Below are positions 8,871-17,111 of a stretch of DNA of 64,000 bases, in pieces. Made by a program: the position numbers and the translations under genes. Source of the DNA: Natrialba swarupiae (GTDB taxonomy: Archaea; Halobacteriota; Halobacteria; Halobacteriales; Natrialbaceae); NCBI RefSeq assembly GCF_008245225.1, contig NZ_VTAW01000008.1, forward strand, positions 1 through 64,000, read 5' to 3'. The notes under the pieces were generated by a model that saw only the letters and a list, made by a program, of their open reading frames with translations, was not told where the DNA came from and made no database searches. Numbering within the stretch: position 1 is the stretch's first letter; every line of letters begins with the position of its first letter.

Positions 8871-10055
8871 TTACCGGATGACGTCGACGCCGTTTTGCTT
8901 CTCGAGTTCCTCGCGGCCGCCGTCGCTCTGGGCACCGAATTCGGGTCCTGACTCGACGTTGTTACTCGCGTCGAAGTCGGACTCGTTCAGTCCCTCGATA
9001 CTCGCACGGGACTTGTCGGCCTGTTTCTGGGTCGTCGGTCCAAGAACCTGCGCGCTCTGGACGCCGGTCATAATCGCCATCACGCGGACCTTGCCCTTGT
9101 AGTTCTCCTGGATGCGCGCGCCCCAGATGACGTTCGCCGACGCCTCGAGACGTTCGGTGATGTTGTCGGCGATCCCTTCGGCCTCTTTGAGAGTGAGATC
9201 CGGTCCGCCGGTGATGTGGACGAGTCCGCCACTCGCGCCACGATAGTCGACGTCCAACAGCGGATGGTTCATCGCGTCTTTGACGACCTCGTCGGTCTTG
9301 TTCTTATCCTGTGTCTCCCCGACGAGCATCACCGCGACGCCGCCCTGATTCATGATCGTGGACATGTCCGCGTAGTCCAGGTTGATCAGTGACGGCTGGG
9401 TGATCGTCTCCGAGATTCCTTTGACGGTTTCGGCGATGATCTGGTCCATCACCGAGAACGCCTTGCCGATCGGGAGGTTCGGGACGTAATCGAGCAGCCG
9501 GTTGTTGTCGAGGACGATGATCGAGTCGGCCTGTTCGCGCAGTTTCTCGAGACCTTCCTCGGCTTTCACGGTTCGTGCCCGCTCGACGTTGAACGGCGTC
9601 GAGACCATGCCGACGACGATCGCGCCCTGTTCTTTGGCGATCTTCGAGACGACCGGAGCGGCACCGGTACCGGTCCCGCCGCCCATCCCTGCTGTAACGA
9701 AGACGAGGTCCGCATCCCCGAGGACCTCTTTGATGGTGCTCTGGGCCATCTCGGTGGCACGCTCTCCCATCGATGGATCTCCGCCTGCGCCGAGTCCGTT
9801 CGTCAGCGACTTGCCGACGAGGACCTTTGTGTCGGCTTCGATCATCTTGAGGTGCTGTTTGTCCGTGTTGACCGCCACGGTGTCGGCACCGTCGACGCCG
9901 ATGTTGTACAGCCGGTTGATCGTGTTGTTACCGGCACCGCCACAGCCGACGATGACGATCCGCGGATCGCCGAACTCGTCGCCGTCCATGTCGGCGTCCA
10001 TCTCGCGGGCTTCCTGTTCTGCGTTCTCGAGTGCGTCCTGAACGATATCCTGCAT
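8871..10055 (-). CDS. ftsZ2: Cell division protein FtsZ2
   Basis: 394 aa from [20 protein letters not shown]. The GTP-binding signature GGGTGTG is at residues 125-131, and the T7 synergy region [15 protein letters not shown] is present. The long acidic N-terminus and the Q-rich region after [15 protein letters not shown] identify the FtsZ2 branch of archaeal FtsZ. FtsZ2 acts with FtsZ1 in ring assembly and constriction. The frame has a GTG six codons upstream, but ATG 10055 follows the cdrS stop by 2 nt and is preceded by a purine-rich stretch, so the pair is translated from one mRNA. Confidence 0.97.
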
Positions 10056-10057
10056 GA

Positions 10058-10237
10058 TTACACCTTCGCCCACGTTCGTTTACCGGCCTGTTCGGTCTGC
10101 CCCTCGTACTGTTCGTTGATCATCTCTCGGACGGCCGACCGAATCGCCTCGCTTCGGTTCGGGAACTCGCCCGAGTCGACGAGCTGTTCTACCTCCTCGA
10201 TCTGCTGTTTCGGAATTCGCAGTGTCACACGCTCCAT
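10058..10237 (-). CDS. cdrS: CdrS, ribbon-helix-helix cell division regulator
   Basis: Short gene of 59 codons: [20 protein letters not shown], then [20 protein letters not shown], then a basic tail ending KRTWAKV. This is a minimal ribbon-helix-helix DNA-binding protein (strand VTLRIP, two helices, SEAIRSAVR). It stops 2 nt before ftsZ2. The small RHH protein co-transcribed with ftsZ2 is known in haloarchaea as CdrS, a regulator of cell division genes. The upstream region holds five GTCTTAC-type motifs (10256-10425) that are candidate operators. Confidence 0.93.
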
Positions 10238-10255
10238 GGTTGTATTCCCCAGTGG

Positions 10256-10425
10256 GTAAGACGTCGCGCGCCCCTGTCAGACGCAGCGTGTCTTACGCCA
10301 GAGATGCCCTTTTACGGGGTTTTTCGCCGCTTTTTCTCCTTTGTAAGACAACCGTCTTACGCGAGTAAACGGAATGTCTGCATAGGTAATAAAACTATCG
10401 TCAGACACGAGTGTTCGTGTCTTAC
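10256..10425 (-). promoter_or_regulatory. cdrS-ftsZ2 promoter with GTCTTAC/GTAAGAC motif cluster
   Basis: Motif copies: GTAAGAC 10256-10262, GTCTTAC 10290-10296, the palindrome GTAAGAC-aacc-GTCTTAC 10343-10360, and GTCTTAC 10419-10425. The last overlaps a second palindrome, AGACACGA-gtgt-TCGTGTCT (10403-10422). On the minus strand ttttatta near 10385-10395 is the best TATA box. It would start transcription near 10362, just before the central palindrome, leaving a leader of about 125 nt ahead of cdrS. Operators for CdrS and/or CdrL are inferred from this layout. Confidence 0.65.
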
Positions 10426-10430
10426 GAAGG

Positions 10431-11012
10431 TCACATATTTCGACTGTCCGACTCGAGAACGTCCGCCGCGGGCGTTCGTCGACCACAGCTCGGACAGAAC
10501 GCCCAGTCGGATCGAAGCTCGTCGCCACACTCACAGAACGACCGGTGTGTGGCCTTCTCGCCACAGTTCGGGCAGTATACGTGGTCTGCATCCACGTGTT
10601 CGCCACACTGGTTGCACTGCGTTCCGTCCGGCTCCGGTGTCGATCCCCCCCTCGCCCGGTCCGCGTCCGACGTCGTCGCATGGGTTCGCTCGTCGGACGC
10701 GTCGGTCCTCCGAGCCTCCGTCCCTTCGAGGGAGACCGTGACGTTGACATCTTGGGGCTCTCGCGTATGCGCGGGAGACTGCAAACGGGGAGCAACCGAG
10801 TCCAGTCGCTCGGCGAGCAACTCGTCGATCCGATCCTGTACGAGATCGTCGATTGCTGTCTCCGCGCGGTCACGTTCCGCCGAGTCCTGCCCGTCGGACG
10901 AGCCGCCGAGATACGATCGAAGCGCCTTGCGCATCGCTTCGCTCTTGGAGATCTCGAGCGCCTCGAGTTCCTCGACGAGGTCGTCGTCGGCGCGGAACGT
11001 GATCTTACTCAT
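10431..11012 (-). CDS. cdrL: CdrL, RHH protein with C-terminal double zinc ribbon
   Basis: 193 aa. N-terminal ribbon-helix-helix (MSKITFRADDDLVEELEALE, then ISKSEAMRKALRSYL). Then an acidic, low-complexity linker, and a C-terminal double zinc ribbon: CNQCG...YCPNCG and FCECGDEL...FCPSCG. Its position directly upstream of cdrS-ftsZ2 matches CdrL, the longer paralogue described beside CdrS. Upstream on the minus strand, gatatagg gives a TATA box. TAGGAT...ATCCTA (about 11017-11047) forms an inverted repeat that could be an operator. Confidence 0.88.
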   Translation of the reverse strand: MSKITFRADDDLVEELEALEISKSEAMRKALRSYLGGSSDGQDSAERDRAETAIDDLVQDRIDELLAERLDSVAPRLQSPAHTREPQDVNVTVSLEGTEARRTDASDERTHATTSDADRARGGSTPEPDGTQCNQCGEHVDADHVYCPNCGEKATHRSFCECGDELRSDWAFCPSCGRRTPAADVLESDSRNM

Positions 11013-11142: not shown

Positions 11143-11216
11143 CCGCCCTTAGCTCAGACTGGTAGAGCAGTCGACTGTAGATCGACTTGCCCCCCGTTCA
11201 AATCGGGGAGGGCGGA
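11143..11216 (+). tRNA. tRNA-Tyr (GTA)
   Basis: 74-nt cloverleaf. Acceptor CCGCCCT pairs with AGGGCGG with discriminator A. D-arm AGCTCAGACTGGTAGAGC; anticodon arm TCGACTGTAGATCGA with anticodon GTA at 11177-11179; T arm CCCCGTTCAAATCGGGG. No CCA is encoded. Its 3' end is the left attachment site of the element that follows; the gene stays intact because the element restores the 3' end. Confidence 0.97.
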
Positions 11217-11218
11217 CT
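11189..11218. repeat. attL core, 30-bp direct repeat (tRNA-Tyr 3' end)
   Basis: Starts gccccccgttcaaatc and ends agggcggact. Identical to 16812-16841. It covers the T arm and acceptor 3' strand of tRNA-Tyr plus two bases. Confidence 0.9.
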
Positions 11219-11292
11219 TCTTCCCAAGCCGATACCCATTCGCGGTACGGCGCTGACTTGCTTTTATACCTCTCCCACGCTCCGCGTGAGAG

Positions 11293-11307
11293 TTGGGCTT
11301 GTGACAA
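11293..11307. repeat. Short perfect palindrome ggcttgt-g-acaagcc
   Basis: Seven-base arms around one base, in the 225-bp non-coding left end of the element (11219-11443). That stretch also has a cacgc-tcc-gcgtg hairpin. Possible recombinase arm site or leader structure. Confidence 0.45.
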
Positions 11308-11443
11308 GCCACGCCCGTCCCCGTCATGCACTCCTAAGAGTTGAGAGCGCGGCATACGTCTTAGCTCTATGCGTCCCGCCAGAGCCTCCCTGAGCTACCC
11401 AAAGAGATTACTCAACCCTCCACTTACGAACGGGAGGAGCTGT

Positions 11444-11581
11444 ATGCAAGACGGAAACGAACTTGCTCCGTGTCCCCGGTGTGGAGGCCGCTACAAGCGG
11501 ATTGACCACACCAAGGCGGGGAACCTGTACATCCACCTCACAAAGGAGGGGGAGGAGCGGCGTTGTCTTGTTTCCAGATAA
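11444..11581 (+). CDS. Small zinc-finger peptide of the element (45 aa)
   Basis: MQDGNELAPCPRCGGRYKRI is followed by DHTKAGNLYIHLTKEG and ends EERRCLVSR. The CPRCG knuckle with two His and a further Cys suggests a single zinc-binding site. ATG 11444 is preceded at good spacing by gggaggag, an unusually clear Shine-Dalgarno sequence. A TATA-like ttttatacc lies near 11264. It is the only gene reading away from the tRNA on the plus strand. Small zinc-finger proteins of this type are common in haloarchaeal viruses and plasmids; function unknown. Confidence 0.7.
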   Translation: MQDGNELAPCPRCGGRYKRIDHTKAGNLYIHLTKEGEERRCLVSR

Positions 11582-11609
11582 TAGCCTCTCTCAGGTAATA
11601 CTATCATGC

Positions 11610-11730
11610 ACCCCGGAGCCCGGGTAAACTCCGTGGAGCGTCCCGGGGAGACGGGGACTCTCTACTACTCAGAAAAACAGGAACGCGCTCAGAGCGCAAA
11701 TACGGCGCTCTGGTTGGACGTGGGAGGGAG
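11610..11730 (+). repeat. Element-internal inverted duplication, left copy
   Basis: About 115 bp that align, in reverse orientation, with 13095-13215. Shared blocks include ctccgtg, a gagac-ggg block, gaacgcgctcagagcgca-like sequence and ttggacgtggg. Translated, both copies give a related peptide with a PG...Y.E...A..A.TA..LDVG pattern, which suggests decay from a common coding sequence. The plus-strand frame 11606-11806 covers this copy but then runs through the neighbour, so I do not call it a gene. Confidence 0.5.
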
Positions 11731-11732
11731 GG

Positions 11733-11948
11733 CTACTCCTCCACGGCCTCCCGGAGGGCCCGCGTCACTTGTCCGCGGTAGTGGTCATACCACACTCCGT
11801 CAATAGCGGTCCGGCGGTGAGGGACGTAGATACCGGTGGCCTCCATGAGGTCTCCGCGGAGGGCTTGGATTCTTGCGGGACGCATACCGGCCTCCCACTC
11901 CTCCAAGAGGGCTCTGGCGTCGGTCTTGGGACTCTGTTTGGCGGTCAT
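11733..11948 (-). CDS. Element protein of unknown function (71 aa)
   Basis: MTAKQSPKTDARALLEEWEA, then GMRPARIQALRGDLMEATGI and a C-terminal region ending TRALREAVEE. Basic and acidic helices alternate, and it could be a small DNA-binding protein, but I recognise no family. ATG 11948 is preferred to the TTG two codons upstream. AT-rich boxes (attaaaag, tatataaaag) lie 15-30 nt upstream, so it probably has its own promoter. Last gene of the minus-strand cluster. Confidence 0.65.
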   Translation of the reverse strand: MTAKQSPKTDARALLEEWEAGMRPARIQALRGDLMEATGIYVPHRRTAIDGVWYDHYRGQVTRALREAVEE

Positions 11949-11984
11949 ATCCAAGATACCTTTTATATACTTTTAATAGGTTGA

Positions 11985-12185
11985 CTACCCCCGGAGGAGG
12001 CGGTTCAACTCCTCCGTCCGGCTTTCACGTCGGGGAGGAACGGGCGCGGGGTCTCCAAACAAGTAGTCCGGGAGGTCCTCACCACAAGAGGAGCACGTCT
12101 TACTCAGAGGGCTCTTGGCTGTGGTGGAGAACGACCCTCTCATGGGGACGCTGGCCCGACACTCCGGGCATTTGGGGACAGTCAT
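11985..12185 (-). CDS. Zinc-ribbon protein of the element (66 aa)
   Basis: Two CxxC knuckles: PKCPECRAS near the N-terminus and KTCSSCGEDLPDYLF after a 22-residue spacer. Then a proline/arginine-rich tail ending RTEELNRLLRG. This is a classic zinc ribbon. The ATG overlaps the TGA of the upstream 197-aa gene by 4 bp, so translation is probably coupled. Function unknown. Confidence 0.75.
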   Translation of the reverse strand: MTVPKCPECRASVPMRGSFSTTAKSPLSKTCSSCGEDLPDYLFGDPAPVPPRRESRTEELNRLLRG

Positions 12186-12775
12186 AGATTGGCGTCGTCA
12201 ATGTGGGTGAGTGTTGGGTGGTCCGGCTTGCCCTTGCCGTCAGACTTGCTCACGGCCTCCGTGGGCGTTCCAAGCTCAGCGTCCAAATGTTTCAACAGCA
12301 TGTCCCCGGGGGAGTCCTCAGCGCCCTCCTCCGGCTCATAGGACGGCTCACTGTCAGACTTGGAGACCGGAGCCGTGGGGTTGCCACGGACACGGTTGAG
12401 AGTTGACCCACTCTCCGTAATAGCGGAGTTGACGGCTTTCTCCACGTCTCCACCGGGCTCAGAGCCCTCTACGTCGTCCGGGAGGTTGGACCCGTCCCCG
12501 GCCAGATACGTCCGAACGACCTCCCACACCTCCTCCGGGAGTAGCTCTTGGAGGTCTTGTGGGTCGTAGGTGTTGGCCTCCGCCTTGGTCTCCTCCACAT
12601 CCTCAATGGAGCCGACACCGCCCTCCTCCGCCTTGGAGAGTTTGGTGTCAATCATGGCCTCCACATCGGACTTGGATACTACCTCAAAGTCCTCAAGGAC
12701 CTCAGAGAACGTATCCACAAGCTCTCCCATAGTAAAGTCGGTGGAGTTGGACTTGTTGAGCTTGTGGCGGCTCAT
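12182..12775 (-). CDS. Acidic element protein with three VSKSD repeats (197 aa)
   Basis: Begins MSRHKLNKSNSTDFTMGELV. A helical N-terminal third is followed by long acidic, probably disordered linkers. The short motif VSKSD occurs three times: VVSKSDVEAMIDTKL, APVSKSDSEPSY and AVSKSDGKGKPD. No family recognised. It could be a partition-, replication- or structural-type adaptor, but no function is claimed. The ATG overlaps the TGA of the upstream 80-aa gene by 4 bp, and its own TGA overlaps the next ATG. Confidence 0.72.
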   Translation of the reverse strand: MSRHKLNKSNSTDFTMGELVDTFSEVLEDFEVVSKSDVEAMIDTKLSKAEEGGVGSIEDVEETKAEANTYDPQDLQELLPEEVWEVVRTYLAGDGSNLPDDVEGSEPGGDVEKAVNSAITESGSTLNRVRGNPTAPVSKSDSEPSYEPEEGAEDSPGDMLLKHLDAELGTPTEAVSKSDGKGKPDHPTLTHIDDANL

Positions 12776-13014
12776 GCGTCCACCCCAAGGCGCTCCGTAA
12801 CGGCCTCCGAAAACTCCTCCGCGGGAGCAACGCCAGCGTCCTCCGCCAGCTTGGCAACGGCCTCAATGGCCCGCTCTGTGTCCTCCCGGTTGAGGTCTCC
12901 CTCAAGGCCAAGGACCTCCCGGAAAAAGGCGTCCCACGGCGTTCCTCTTGGACGTTCAGCGTCCATCATAGCTTTCGTATCGGATTTTAGGGAGATAGTC
13001 GTATAGTCAGACAT
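12772..13014 (-). CDS. Small RHH/antitoxin-like protein of the element (80 aa)
   Basis: MSDYTTISLKSDTKAMMDAE, then RPRGTPWDAFFREVLGLEGD and a helical C-terminus. The strand TTISLKSDTK followed by helices and the GTPWDAFFREVL element resembles the small ribbon-helix-helix/VapB-like proteins of haloarchaea and their plasmids, which often control copy number or an operon. No toxin partner is next to it. The frame stays open upstream to 13239, but that part overlaps the duplicated non-coding block. First gene of the four-gene operon. Confidence 0.72.
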   Translation of the reverse strand: MSDYTTISLKSDTKAMMDAERPRGTPWDAFFREVLGLEGDLNREDTERAIEAVAKLAEDAGVAPAEEFSEAVTERLGVDA

Positions 13015-13350
13015 TGTAATCACTCTATGATTAGTGCTCCAATTAGATAAGCAAGAGGCGTACAAAAATCCACACATAGGGCATCTACTCTCCGTTTGCG
13101 GGCCAATTCCCTCTTGCCCCACGTCCAATCTGGGGGCCGTGTGCGCGTTCTCAGAGCGTTTGTGTTCGTCTCCGTATGATTGGCCTCCCGGAGTCTCCAA
13201 TACTACACGGAGCGTTATCGGAACTCTCCTTGGGAGCATAGGGTGGGCACTCTCCGCACCACCTACGGGGTAAGAAAATCTGAGGGGTTGGACATAAGAT
13301 ACACAGAGGGAGGAGAGAGATAGTATAGTAGTAAAGAATAGAGTATAGTA
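13015..13350. other. Non-coding stretch between primase and small-protein operon
   Basis: Holds the right copy of the internal inverted duplication (about 13095-13215). Next to the primase 3' end is an AT-rich run with repeated agtatagta (about 13320-13352), which on the minus strand reads as a pyrimidine-rich tract and may terminate the primase transcript. The promoter for the small-protein operon should lie near 13025-13050 (attagataag and flanking AT-rich bases). No intact gene seen. Confidence 0.5.
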
Positions 13351-14781
13351 TTACAGACTATCAGGGATGTATAGGTCACTCAACCCAGTATCCACGTATT
13401 GAGTAGGGAACCCCGGAGATTTTCTGTCCTCAAGGGCTCCCGTTCGGACAAGGAGATGGAGAGCCCTCCTCACCCGGCGCTTTACGCTGGCCCCTTTGGC
13501 GTATCCGCGGGCTACCATATCGGTCTCCATTATATCTTGAACGGTGTATTGCTCCCGGTCTATGAGTATGAGGACGTTGTAGACCTCCCGGACTGACTCC
13601 AAGCTTACCGTTGGCCGTCCCCCGTTCTCTCTGGCGTCCTCCATGAACGCCCGCATGAGGTCCCGGTCAAAGGCCTCCACGTCAAGGAGCGCGGTCTTGC
13701 GGACTGTGGTGGCCACGTAGTCCTTTCTCCGCATTTTGGACTCAGAGCCCTCTACACGTCCCTCCCGGTCACGGTAGGCTTGGAGGAGCGCTCCCGTGGT
13801 GGCCTCATCAAATCGCCACAAGAGGAGGAGCCGGGCGGTGGCCATGTCGGCCTCACTCACGGAGTGATAGTCGTAGTCCCGGGGGAGGAGGTCAGAGAGG
13901 AGCCGGTCCAATTTCTCAGAGCGCTCACGTACCTCTTTGAGCGTCATACCTACGTCGTTTGTAGTCTCCGCGGGGTCGTCGGGGAGGCCAGCAACTTGGA
14001 GCGGCTCCACCTGTTGTCCTCCTTTCACTGTAGAGCCCTCTGAGTTGGAGCCGGGGAGTAGCTCCTTTGGGAGGTCCTCCTCACTCAGAGGAGCTATTGG
14101 GGTGTCCTTCGTGAGGTGGTACACTCCACCGGAGGGGTGTACGCTCCCCGGGAGAACAACATACCAGTTGGAGGCGCGGACCTCTCCCGCTCCATGGAGG
14201 TCTCCCGTCGCCTTGCTGTTGGCCACCTCCCCGTCATTACGGTAGGTGAGGTGATAGCCCCGGGCGGAGCCGGAGGTCACGGTGAGAGTCTCCGGGAGGT
14301 CCTCTGGCGGGAGTCGTTCGGGGTCGTCAATGTCCACAAAGAGGAGTCCCTCCGTCCCGTGCTCCTCCCGTCCGGCGTAGAGACAAAATCCCCGCTCACC
14401 TCCCGTGGAGAGGGCTCTTACCGCCTCCTCTGGCGTGTGGAGGAGAGCCCTCCCCGGAGGGGAGTCCAACTTAATCCCGCGGGAGGCTATGGCCGGGAGC
14501 TTGCCCTCTTGGTCCAAAGGCATGAGCCGGAGGTCTGACCACCCCTCTACGGCCAGTCGGTCAAGGTAGTCCTCCAAGAGAACCGCCCGGTCCTCCGCGG
14601 AGGTGTTACAGGTGCAAACGGGGTTGGAGTGGCTACAACCCTCAGAGACGCCCGCATTTGTCCCGTGGAGGCCTCCCGGTATGGTAGTGGTATGATTGGT
14701 CTCTTGCCTCCCGAAAATGCTCTCCGGGGACGTAGGGGCGTCTACGGGGCTATCAGGTTCCGTGTGTGAATTGTCGGTCAT
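13351..14781 (-). CDS. Bifunctional primase-polymerase (Prim-Pol/AEP) replication protein
   Basis: 476 aa. The AEP core is clear: LLFVDIDDPERLP with the metal-binding DxD (Asp 150, Asp 152), then SGSARGYHLTYRNDGEV, and the family block GAGEVRASNWYVVLPGSVHP, whose His and following Gly-Val-Tyr complete the nucleotide site. The C-terminal third is helical with a winged-helix look (SLESVREVYNVLILI, GASVKRRVRRALHLLVRTGAL), probably DNA-binding. A Cys-rich N-terminal spot (VCTCNTS) is present. Such proteins start replication of haloarchaeal plasmids and viruses. Its ATG sits 1 bp from a perfect 9-bp inverted repeat. Confidence 0.85.
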   Translation of the reverse strand: MTDNSHTEPDSPVDAPTSPESIFGRQETNHTTTIPGGLHGTNAGVSEGCSHSNPVCTCNTSAEDRAVLLEDYLDRLAVEGWSDLRLMPLDQEGKLPAIASRGIKLDSPPGRALLHTPEEAVRALSTGGERGFCLYAGREEHGTEGLLFVDIDDPERLPPEDLPETLTVTSGSARGYHLTYRNDGEVANSKATGDLHGAGEVRASNWYVVLPGSVHPSGGVYHLTKDTPIAPLSEEDLPKELLPGSNSEGSTVKGGQQVEPLQVAGLPDDPAETTNDVGMTLKEVRERSEKLDRLLSDLLPRDYDYHSVSEADMATARLLLLWRFDEATTGALLQAYRDREGRVEGSESKMRRKDYVATTVRKTALLDVEAFDRDLMRAFMEDARENGGRPTVSLESVREVYNVLILIDREQYTVQDIMETDMVARGYAKGASVKRRVRRALHLLVRTGALEDRKSPGFPTQYVDTGLSDLYIPDSL

Positions 14782-14782
14782 A

Positions 14783-14809
14783 TCTCATTGGAGGAGTCAA
14801 CCAATGAGA
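14783..14809. repeat. Inverted repeat tctcattgg/ccaatgaga at the primase start
   Basis: Perfect 9-bp arms with a 9-nt loop, abutting the ATG of the primase gene. A third copy of the half-site, ctcattgg, occurs at 14911-14918. Candidate operator for the primase or an iteron of the origin. Confidence 0.6.
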
Positions 14810-15053
14810 CACGGAGGAGAGCCCGTTCAGCTTATGCTTGAGCGTCCCGTAAGGAGGAGTGAGGTTCCAAGGCCTCCTCAACAGGGTTTTCCGGGGCCCC
14901 CACCCCGGGTCTCATTGGATTGACTTGGTAGAGCTACGGGCTCCGTTGTATTTAGCATAACCGGCGGTGTAGAGGGCTCTACATCCATAATATGTAGAAA
15001 TTGGTGTCGCAGTTGGCGATACCCTCTTGCTGATTGACCTCTAAGGGTAGAGT

Positions 15054-15173
15054 ACGGGTCACGGACCCTCCAAGGCCCCTCCCGGAGCAAAATACACAGG
15101 TACAATGGCCCGGTGGGAAAGGAGACGGGCAAGAATCCGTCCCCGGTGGCCTTGGAGGGTTCTGGAGACCCGT
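15054..15173. repeat. Long imperfect inverted repeat
   Basis: Left arm acgggtc (15054-15060) + accctccaaggcc (15065-15077). Right arm ggccttggagggt (15148-15160) + gacccgt (15167-15173). Perfect 13-bp inner and 7-bp outer arms, 70-nt loop that itself holds a small hairpin. Confidence 0.7.
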
Positions 15174-15392
15174 ATGCTTTCACTCCAAGCCAACACCGGC
15201 CCGTTGGAAAGGTTGTTTTGCATGGCTGGCAACGTCGTCGGAGCCTCCCGGGGTTGATACACCGGGTCCCCCGCTCCGGTCGTTGCCTCTATACAATGAA
15301 TACCCGCCAGTGTTCCCTCAGAGCGCCGTATCCGGCCCGTATTGAGCCGGGAGTGACTCCAAGAGTGATTAGTCGTCCCTACCCGGCATGTG

Positions 15393-15405
15393 AAATTTTA
15401 AATAA
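15393..15405 (+). promoter_or_regulatory. TATA box of the 54-aa membrane protein gene
   Basis: aaattttaaataa ends 21 nt before the ATG at 15427, giving a leaderless transcript by usual archaeal spacing. Confidence 0.55.
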
Positions 15406-15426
15406 TCTGAATACCGTTCTCTGGGC

Positions 15427-15591
15427 ATGGTCTCCACAGCCACAAAAATCACTGGCGTATTCATTGTTATCGCCGTGATACTATGGTATGCCTCCCTGTC
15501 AGTGACAGAGAACACCATTGTGCAAGCGGCGGTATTACTTGGAGTCGGAGTAGTGATACCGACGCTTATCAACGAAATAAGGAGTGAGTAA
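15427..15591 (+). CDS. Small two-span membrane protein of the element (54 aa)
   Basis: MVSTATKITGVFIVIAVILW, then YASLSVTENTIVQAAVLLGV and GVVIPTLINEIRSE. Two hydrophobic segments (about residues 8-24 and 31-47) joined by a short polar loop; the C-terminus NEIRSE is charged. Start supported by the TATA box at 15393-15405. Small double-span proteins of this form are frequent in haloarchaeal proviruses and plasmids. Function unknown. It is the only gene between the primase and the integrase and lies on the opposite strand. Confidence 0.72.
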   Translation: MVSTATKITGVFIVIAVILWYASLSVTENTIVQAAVLLGVGVVIPTLINEIRSE

Positions 15592-15699
15592 GCTCCCTCC
15601 AAATTAGGGTCCCGGGAACGCCCGGCGTTCAAGGGGGTTGGGTCCCGGTCGTTGCTAAACGGGGATAGATAATAAAGATATTTGATACCTTAGAGGGCT

Positions 15700-16722
15700 C
15701 TACACGTGCTCAAGCCATGAGCGGCGTTGCTCCATTTTCTCCTCCTCCGTCATTTCGTTGTAGTGCTTATCTAAGATGTCCCTTGAGGCGTTTACCCGGT
15801 CACTCACCACGTCTACAGGGACCTCCTCCCGGAGCATGTGTGTGATAGCTCCACGCCTCACGTCGTGAGGAGAGACCGCGGAGGGACACTTGCTTGCTAC
15901 AACTCCCTTGGAGGCGGGTTCACATTCAGAGGGGTCTCTACCGATTGGACACTCTCCCCACTCACATGGACGGGTGGACCGGTAGGTGATACCCCGCATT
16001 GAGGACTTTGCCAGCCTCCCGTTGGACGTAGCAAGTAGGGGCTCACGTCCGTATTCGTCCGTCACGTCCGGGCGGGAGTGTTCTATCCAATCCTCTACTA
16101 CCTCACACACTTGAGGGGAGAGTGCTACGAACCGCTCCCCCTTTTTGCGGTTCTTGAGATTGGTTCCGTCCTCTGGCCGGTGACGGACCTCAAGAGCCTC
16201 CTTGTCGGGATAATAGTCCTCCACGTCAAGGGAGTGGAGGCTCCCCATGCGGAGGCCCGTATGCCACATTAGCTCCAAGAGGACGTGCTTGAGAGAGGCG
16301 TACTCAAATCGGCGGAGGCGGGCCAGCATATCCCGGGCGTCCTCCGTCTCAAGGAGACGCTCCCGTTGGTCCTCCCCTTCCGACAAATTGGGTATGAGGA
16401 GCTTGTCGTGGAGACCGGGCTCCACCGCGTCAATCCGCTCAAGGAACTTGAGGAAAACACGGAGTGTCTGTAGTTGAGTCCGCAAGGAGACGTTGTTGAG
16501 GTCTCCGTCGTCACGTCGCCAGAGGCGGAATTGGTGGAGCTTGCGCCCCGTGAGGTCGTTGAGGTTGTCTATCCGCTCCTCCTCCTCACACCAACGGAGG
16601 AAATGCACAAGGCGGTAGTAGTGGGCGTCAAGGGTGTTTTGCGATACGTCGGTGCTACGCTCCCGGAGATAGAGGTCAACAGCCTCCTCCGGGCGGATTG
16701 GTTCAAGGTCCGTGGTTGTCAT
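15700..16722 (-). CDS. Tyrosine recombinase/integrase of the element
   Basis: 340 aa from MTTTDLEPIRPEEAVDLYLR. N-terminal SAM-like core-binding domain (about 10-110), then the catalytic domain with HTGLRMGSLHSL (Arg 158), SPHDVRRGAITHML (His 286, Arg 289) and the nucleophile Tyr 321 in DKHYNEMT. A cysteine-containing insertion, CEWGECPIGRDPSECEP with a further Cys near 279, may bind zinc and is seen in haloarchaeal phage-type integrases. The frame is open far upstream, but ATG 16722 gives the family N-terminus. It lies beside attR. Confidence 0.92.
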   Translation of the reverse strand: MTTTDLEPIRPEEAVDLYLRERSTDVSQNTLDAHYYRLVHFLRWCEEEERIDNLNDLTGRKLHQFRLWRRDDGDLNNVSLRTQLQTLRVFLKFLERIDAVEPGLHDKLLIPNLSEGEDQRERLLETEDARDMLARLRRFEYASLKHVLLELMWHTGLRMGSLHSLDVEDYYPDKEALEVRHRPEDGTNLKNRKKGERFVALSPQVCEVVEDWIEHSRPDVTDEYGREPLLATSNGRLAKSSMRGITYRSTRPCEWGECPIGRDPSECEPASKGVVASKCPSAVSPHDVRRGAITHMLREEVPVDVVSDRVNASRDILDKHYNEMTEEEKMEQRRSWLEHV

Positions 16723-16750
16723 GGTTGGTTCTCCACGGAGCACATGCGGA

Positions 16751-16841
16751 GACTGTAGGTCGGCTTGTGAGCCGCCGTAAGGCGGCGAAAGAGCCAAGCG
16801 GAGCTTGGCGCGCCCCCCGTTCAAATCGGGGAGGGCGGACT
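16751..16841 (+). repeat. attR with interrupted tRNA-Tyr copy
   Basis: The 30-bp core at 16812-16841 repeats the tRNA-Tyr 3' end exactly. Upstream, gactgtaggtcggcttg (16751-16767) matches the anticodon arm of tRNA-Tyr at 15 of 17 positions. The two parts are separated by about 44 bp holding two perfect hairpins: gccgcc-gtaa-ggcggc (16771-16786) and gccaagc-gga-gcttggc (16793-16809). So the element carries a tRNA-Tyr 3' half broken in the variable region. Confidence 0.75.
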
Positions 16842-16861
16842 CGTTTTCCAGCCGATTTGTG

Positions 16862-16992
16862 GTCGACTGTAGATCGACTTGTCCCCCGTCCTCGTGAGCG
16901 AAGCGAACGAGGGCTCGGAAGTCGCAGGCCCACGCAGCCGAGCGAAGCGAGGTGAGTGGGAACGCCTTCCATCTGTCCAAATCGGGAAGGGG
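16862..16992 (+). pseudogene. Second broken tRNA-Tyr fragment (older integration scar)
   Basis: Bases 16862-16889 match tRNA-Tyr 11170-11197 at 27 of 28 positions (anticodon arm to T stem). After an 84-bp insertion the match resumes at about 16975-16992 (ccaaatcgggaagggg, degenerate). The insertion contains cctcgt/acgagg and gagcgaagcga repeats. It lies on the chromosomal side of attR, so it predates or is independent of the present element. Confidence 0.65.
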
Positions 16993-17111
16993 ATATCTAC
17001 CTTCCTGTCGAAGTATAGCAAACACCAATAGTGGCGTTTACAGGCGCGAAAAGGCGTCAAATGGCTCTTTCGCGTTCGTGCGGGTAGGACAAATTCGGAG
17101 TGGAGTGTGGT

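Follow-up and report, generated by a model that had tools for sequence, protein, structure and literature searches.

The cluster of GTCTTAC/GTAAGAC heptads found in front of cdrS-ftsZ2 in the window (the whole stretch of 64,000 nucleotides of Natrialba swarupiae DNA analysed here) is a real and deeply conserved operator array, which in our estimation, at a probability of roughly 0.9, is a ribbon-helix-helix (RHH) operator of the Cdr system. It lies in the 193-bp intergenic region between cdrL and cdrS. The cdrS gene (10058–10237, minus strand) encodes an RHH regulator of 59 amino acids (Pfam PF01402, 33 bits) and is followed by ftsZ2 (8871–10055, minus strand; PF00091 and PF12327), while cdrL (10431–11012, minus strand) encodes a protein with an N-terminal RHH domain, a CdrL middle region and a double zinc ribbon (PF24252 and PF12773; profile E 3.7e-83), the RHH_1 score of the N-terminal domain falling slightly under the Pfam cut-off. 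These matches bore out the gene calls of an earlier note on this DNA, according to which both CdrS and CdrL are encoded at the locus. A cdrS gene was present in all 145 of the haloarchaeal genomes sampled. Upstream of cdrL lies a tRNA-Tyr gene (11143–11217, plus strand), beside which a probable integrated element was noticed (11143–16900); partial tRNA-Tyr copies occur within it at 16812–16856 and 16862–16889, and a tyrosine-integrase-like open reading frame (15700–17028, minus strand) is located in the same region.

Five exact copies of the heptad were located at 10256–10262 (−), 10290–10296 (+), 10343–10349 (−), 10354–10360 (+) and 10419–10425 (+), exactly where the earlier note had placed them. 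As only 0.04 copies would be expected in the 193-bp gap, with a maximum of two in 20,000 first-order Markov simulations, and as any 7-mer at all reached five or more copies in just 6 of 3,000 simulated gaps (about 0.2%), a chance origin of the cluster is unlikely, even with the word chosen post hoc. The core of the array is the palindrome GTAAGAC-AACC-GTCTTAC (10343–10360, minus strand), whose two heptads, set at an 11-bp pitch, follow closely on the predicted transcription start site, confirming the arrangement with a 4-bp spacer described previously. The predicted TATA box of the cdrS-ftsZ2 promoter, TTTTATTA (10387–10394, minus strand), lies about 30 bp upstream of it. Since a block of 100% A+T, corresponding to the TATA box position, was seen 29–32 bp before the start of the palindrome in 98 aligned promoters, the first base of the palindrome is expected to lie only a few bases from the predicted start site. 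Upstream of the TATA box, an imperfect inverted repeat (10398–10427, minus strand) combines GTAAGAC (10419–10425) with GTCTGAC (10400–10406), the heptad type of the CdrS regulon considered below; the second palindrome reported there is thus present, but its arms are 13 nt long, 92% complementary and 4 nt apart (10398–10410 and 10415–10427), rather than the 8 bp claimed. Within the leader, and read in the cdrS sense, a mid heptad, GTAAGAC, occurs at −59 from the ATG (10290–10296, minus strand) and a start-proximal heptad, GTCTTAC, at −25 (10256–10262, minus strand), together with a further CdrS-type heptad, GTCTGAC, at −45 (10276–10282, minus strand), which was recognised from the sequence and the leader alignment and is conserved mainly in Natrialbaceae. 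Separately from the array, a GGGGAA block at −13 to −8 of cdrS (10245–10250, minus strand) was conserved across haloarchaea; it differs from a standard Shine-Dalgarno sequence.

Conservation of the array was assessed in cdrS upstream DNA gathered from named GTDB genomes and from numbered genomes, among which 139 distinct haloarchaeal loci were counted. The palindrome was exact in 134 of these, the −25 heptad in 131, the mid heptad in 112 and the upstream heptad in 103, the position of the last differing between families. Relative to the cdrS ATG the heptads kept a common register (GTAAGAC at about −188 or GTCTTAC at about −170, the palindrome at −123/−112, GTAAGAC at −59 and GTCTTAC at −25) in every haloarchaeal family sampled, and the leader was poorly conserved outside them. 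Conservation of the 7-mer in related cdrS promoters, on which the earlier note had staked its proposal, therefore held; the TAGGAT/ATCCTA pair that it had pointed out at the cdrL promoter did not fare as well: of 128 distinct cdrL promoters, only that of this window contains the pair. In all loci examined the array stood directly upstream of the RHH gene cdrS, as an autoregulatory RHH operator does, and RHH proteins, already put forward as readers of the heptads, are their likely readers.

Within genomes the palindrome proved to be close to unique. Of 141 haloarchaeal genomes, 135 contained GTAAGAC-N3-5-GTCTTAC, each of them exactly once; the reversed control had no match, and the matches compared among those listed adjoin the cdrS positions. 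In the 4.2-Mb genome of the window, a pattern search found no other place where two inverted copies of the 7-mer stand 30 bp or less apart, and the exact palindrome of the window was not found in viral contigs. The scan by which a regulon was to be found thus gives exactly one site per genome, so that the GTAAGAC form has no regulon, and the GTAAGAC palindrome was rejected as the CdrS regulon motif. Such a distribution would fit a factor with one target.

The promoters bound by CdrS elsewhere carry a closely similar heptad. CdrS ChIP targets in Haloferax volcanii include ftsZ1, dacZ and hisB (PMC8406309, Table 1), and the first two promoters were scored in 30 haloarchaea with shuffled controls. 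Two heptads at an 11-bp pitch were found directly upstream of the BRE/TATA elements of ftsZ1 in 26/30 genomes at a threshold of at least 12 of 14 matches and in 30/30 at a threshold of at least 11; a heptad pair at the same pitch lay upstream of the BRE/TATA elements of dacZ in 13/30 and 18/30, respectively, and the shuffles gave 0 for both. For hisB, one of the three genome-wide matches outside cdrS in G040, a Haloferax whose cdrS locus is 83% identical over 2 kb to that of Hfx. marinum, lay in the divergent hisB promoter, where the published CdrS site is reported to be present on both strands (PMC8406309). The two further CdrS-type pairs of this genome (L315 and L317) could be among the ChIP sites that were published without annotation. 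No box was conserved in the psmB promoters, and psmB was dropped as a candidate for a conserved target of CdrS. A degenerate pattern, GTMWGAC-N4-GTCWKAC, had 100 matches across 44 genomes, compared with 3 for its reversed control, some 40 of the 100 being cdrS itself. The CdrS regulon thus uses GTCWGAC heptads, spaced at the 11-bp pitch of the palindrome, and from the targets and the positions we infer that GTCWGAC-N4-GTCWGAC is the published CdrS motif. The palindrome at 10343–10360 shares the pitch but not the heptad, GTAAGAC and GTCTTAC each departing from GTCWGAC by one change; in the window, GTCTGAC is confined to the secondary sites at 10276–10282 and 10400–10406. The strict use of GTAAGAC, not GTCWGAC, at the haloarchaeal sites suggests a different reader or an altered affinity.

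CdrS-type pairs were also found upstream of the TATA box of cdrL, in 49 of 69 loci outside Natrialbaceae (for example L060, L129 and L138; shuffles 0) and in 5 of 38 in a set dominated by Natrialbaceae, and no such pair is present in the window. In most haloarchaea CdrS therefore qualifies as a candidate activator of cdrL, and, with its boxes in front of that gene in the majority of haloarchaea outside Natrialbaceae, CdrS and CdrL may form a closed feedback loop.

Older arrays exist outside the haloarchaea. In the cdrS leaders of outgroup genomes of the same phylum, which from their place in it probably include methanogens, GTCAGAC/GTCTGAC (GTCWGAC) heptads take the place of GTAAGAC, and, under a tolerant heptad definition, the distances between heptad pairs peaked only at 11, 22 and 33 bp (43, 37 and 25 pairs against 0.7–0.9 expected for each), a phasing that reflects the DNA helix. 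In L200, L201, L202 and L207 the last heptad of the array is GTCATAC, which has the GTA-type half-site of haloarchaea and is possibly an intermediate form. CdrL is restricted to Halobacteria according to the literature, and a search of six outgroup genomes gave no clear cdrL, with one marginal match at E 9.7e-4. As the heptad and its pitch are shared by methanogen cdrS and by ftsZ1, dacZ, hisB and cdrL, the cluster is best regarded as an RHH operator derived from a CdrS operator.

An initial hypothesis, prompted by the CdrL ChIP signal at this promoter only, was that the array is simply the operator of CdrL, and this was weakened both by the outgroup arrays and by haloarchaea without cdrL. A CdrL profile search of 145 genomes gave matches at E 1e-24 or better in 138 and background values of about 1e-4 in the other seven (G001, G002, G007, G026, G093, G136 and G138); no cdrL-like frame better than E 3e-4 was seen at the cdrL-less loci examined. 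The literature ascribes cdrL to every sequenced member of the Halobacteria, which these seven genomes contradict. Since they are spread over six genera in four families, cdrL was probably lost several times independently. The tRNA-Tyr gene that flanks cdrL in the window and in G059 was also sought at the cdrL-less loci of all these genomes but G007: at five of the six it stands a few hundred bp ahead of cdrS without an intervening cdrL, and at the sixth, that of G026, it was not detected. In all seven cdrL-less genomes both the palindrome and the −25 site are exact, so that a reader other than CdrL is likely; the palindrome is thus not tied to the presence of cdrL, and, conversely, the six genomes without an exact palindrome of 3–5-bp spacing all carry the gene. 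The remaining heptads behaved differently. The exact upstream heptad was present in 1/7 cdrL-less genomes against 102/132 with CdrL (Fisher 0.001), and the exact mid heptad in 1/7 against 111/132 (Fisher 0.0002), which hints that CdrL may use these two sites. A within-family permutation of this rarity gave p values of 0.008 (upstream) and 0.04 (mid), which became 0.017 and 0.12 once one congener was removed; with the test weak for the mid site, an assignment of the two sites as specific to CdrL was kept as suggestive only.

A stricter version of the initial hypothesis holds that CdrL alone recognises GTAAGAC in haloarchaea, that no sharing with CdrS takes place, and that the cdrL-less genomes keep the array because the loss was recent or another RHH protein has taken over. 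It would explain the rarity of the upstream and mid heptads where cdrL has been lost, and the replacement of GTC by GTA in both outer half-sites. Residues 3, 5 and 7, which we take, from the example of NikR and further RHH proteins, to be the DNA-contact residues of CdrS and CdrL, read R-T-R in 177/177 CdrS and K-T-R in 149/150 CdrL sequences, and the K3 of CdrL in place of the R3 of CdrS likewise agrees with a separate specificity. Chromatin immunoprecipitation points the same way: with CdrL-FLAG in Halobacterium salinarum a reproducible signal was obtained only at the cdrS-ftsZ2 promoter (PMC7439475), in agreement with one palindrome per genome, and ChIP-seq of N-terminally FLAG-tagged, plasmid-expressed CdrS in Hfx. 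volcanii produced a list of 18 sites that lacks the cdrS promoter (PMC8406309). The intact palindrome and −25 site in seven of seven cdrL-less genomes, the retention of cdrL in all six genomes lacking the exact palindrome and the homologous arrays in outgroups without cdrL nevertheless argue against it, and it is considered unlikely, if still worth weighing.

Those outgroup arrays and cdrL-less haloarchaea, together with a pitch equal to, and a heptad nearly equal to, those of CdrS boxes, could instead be explained if CdrS were the sole reader, the CdrL ChIP signal being either indirect, through recruitment by CdrS, or due to another element. Recruitment by CdrS, however, should also mark the other CdrS targets, whereas CdrL was seen at the cdrS-ftsZ2 promoter only, and the cdrS promoter is missing from the CdrS ChIP list; this reading is accordingly improbable. 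Both that omission and the retention of the array in the absence of cdrL would be accounted for by a further conserved regulator, distinct from CdrS and CdrL alike, that reads the GTAAGAC form. No candidate for it was found, though; the array resembles CdrS boxes in heptad and pitch, and at the locus itself every genome encodes CdrS as the RHH regulator. Such a factor is considered very improbable.

The repeats were also considered as hairpins of the mRNA leader, formed by the palindrome and by pairing of the mid with the −25 heptad, rather than as DNA sites. The leader of the window folds better than its shuffles (z −2.06), as do 28 leaders on average (mean z −4.05, or −2.77 without the palindrome, with mononucleotide shuffles); the fixed orientation of the heptads would allow the arms to pair, and post-transcriptional control of ftsZ2 has been reported. 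Inverted repeats, however, tend to fold more stably than shuffles. Compensatory base-pair changes were not found in the leader alignment, in which the heptad columns are invariant (covariation term −0.05), no Rfam match was obtained, and the −25 site is kept in 19 of 21 loci that lack the mid site. Neither the exact 11-bp DNA phasing in outgroups nor the heptads at untranscribed positions, upstream of the TATA box here and of the BRE at ftsZ1, dacZ and cdrL, would be expected of an RNA element. The RNA-level reading was therefore set aside, the leader folding well yet showing no covariation, and is the least probable of the alternatives considered.

The best single model is one of dual reading, to which we would give even odds: autoregulation by CdrS is ancestral, and CdrL was added as a reader in haloarchaea. 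The cluster would constitute an operator array for RHH dimers. Its ancestor would be the array that takes up the cdrS leader of methanogens, through which CdrS would regulate its own gene; in haloarchaea this would have been reduced to one fixed palindrome and single heptads, the outer half-sites having passed from GTC to GTA. CdrS would bind the cluster and so, in genomes that encode it, would CdrL, an RHH protein specific to haloarchaea. The palindrome, once occupied so close behind the start site, would restrain or adjust the transcription of cdrS-ftsZ2; direct binding of CdrS at the array, and the geometry of the dimers on it, are what we infer. More tentatively, and with somewhat less than even confidence, the phased CdrS array may be ancestral to Halobacteriota, with CdrL, through its K-for-R reading head, later competing for the slightly re-coded sites in a closed loop that sets the balance of FtsZ1 and FtsZ2. 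CdrS autoregulation, as suggested in the earlier note, is favoured by the methanogen arrays at cdrS, but the published CdrS ChIP list does not contain that promoter. As to the possible repression loop proposed there, it is by its position that the palindrome downstream of the predicted start site suggests repression, just as sites upstream of the BRE at ftsZ1 and dacZ suggest activation, and published FtsZ1 CRISPRi and overexpression data indicate activation by CdrS. The expression data for ftsZ2 are, however, mixed: CdrS overexpression left FtsZ2 at about 0.7-fold, which its authors judged very little difference, and deletion of cdrS in Hbt. salinarum lowered ftsZ2 mRNA 1.3- to 2.2-fold, opposite to simple autorepression.

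The means by which archaea adjust the amounts of their division proteins are still an open question; CdrS and CdrL are the regulators known from haloarchaea, and the array would let the protein levels feed back on themselves. The operator sequence for the cdrS-ftsZ2 promoter is spelled out in the text of neither PMC8406309 nor PMC7439475; what is gained here is a base-level operator code and a predicted loop, running from CdrS to cdrL and from CdrS/CdrL to cdrS-ftsZ2. Species that lost cdrL provide a natural experiment, and the methanogen arrays would allow the same circuit to be tested without CdrL.

Among known systems, the CdrS regulon sites of Hfx. volcanii (Liao et al. 2021, PMC8406309) are alike in regulator and organism group, but consist of GTCWGAC pairs at an 11-bp pitch at the listed ftsZ1, dacZ and hisB promoters, whereas the cdrS heptads are GTAAGAC/GTCTTAC and are found both downstream of the predicted start site and upstream of the TATA box. 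The CdrL binding region of Hbt. salinarum (Darnell et al. 2020, PMC7439475) is the same intergenic region and, like the palindrome, is a single target per genome; the main text of that study gives neither a motif nor a position of binding at the level of bases, and the palindrome also persists in genomes without cdrL. The closest sequence relative of CdrS in the PDB is NikR, whose Escherichia coli operator, GTATGA-N16-TCATAC (PMC7055735), is likewise bound by an RHH protein and has a similar half-site starting with GTA, but its half-sites are 22 bp apart from start to start, its binding is nickel-dependent, and it forms no phased array of multiple heptads. In the RelB operator relO and Arc-type operators (PMC2812701), RHH dimers sit side by side on one face of the DNA at a spacing of about one turn and autoregulate their own operon; these operators are built of hexad repeats in 12-bp half-sites in a toxin-antitoxin context, whereas the cdrS array is built of heptads at an 11-bp pitch upstream of a division operon.
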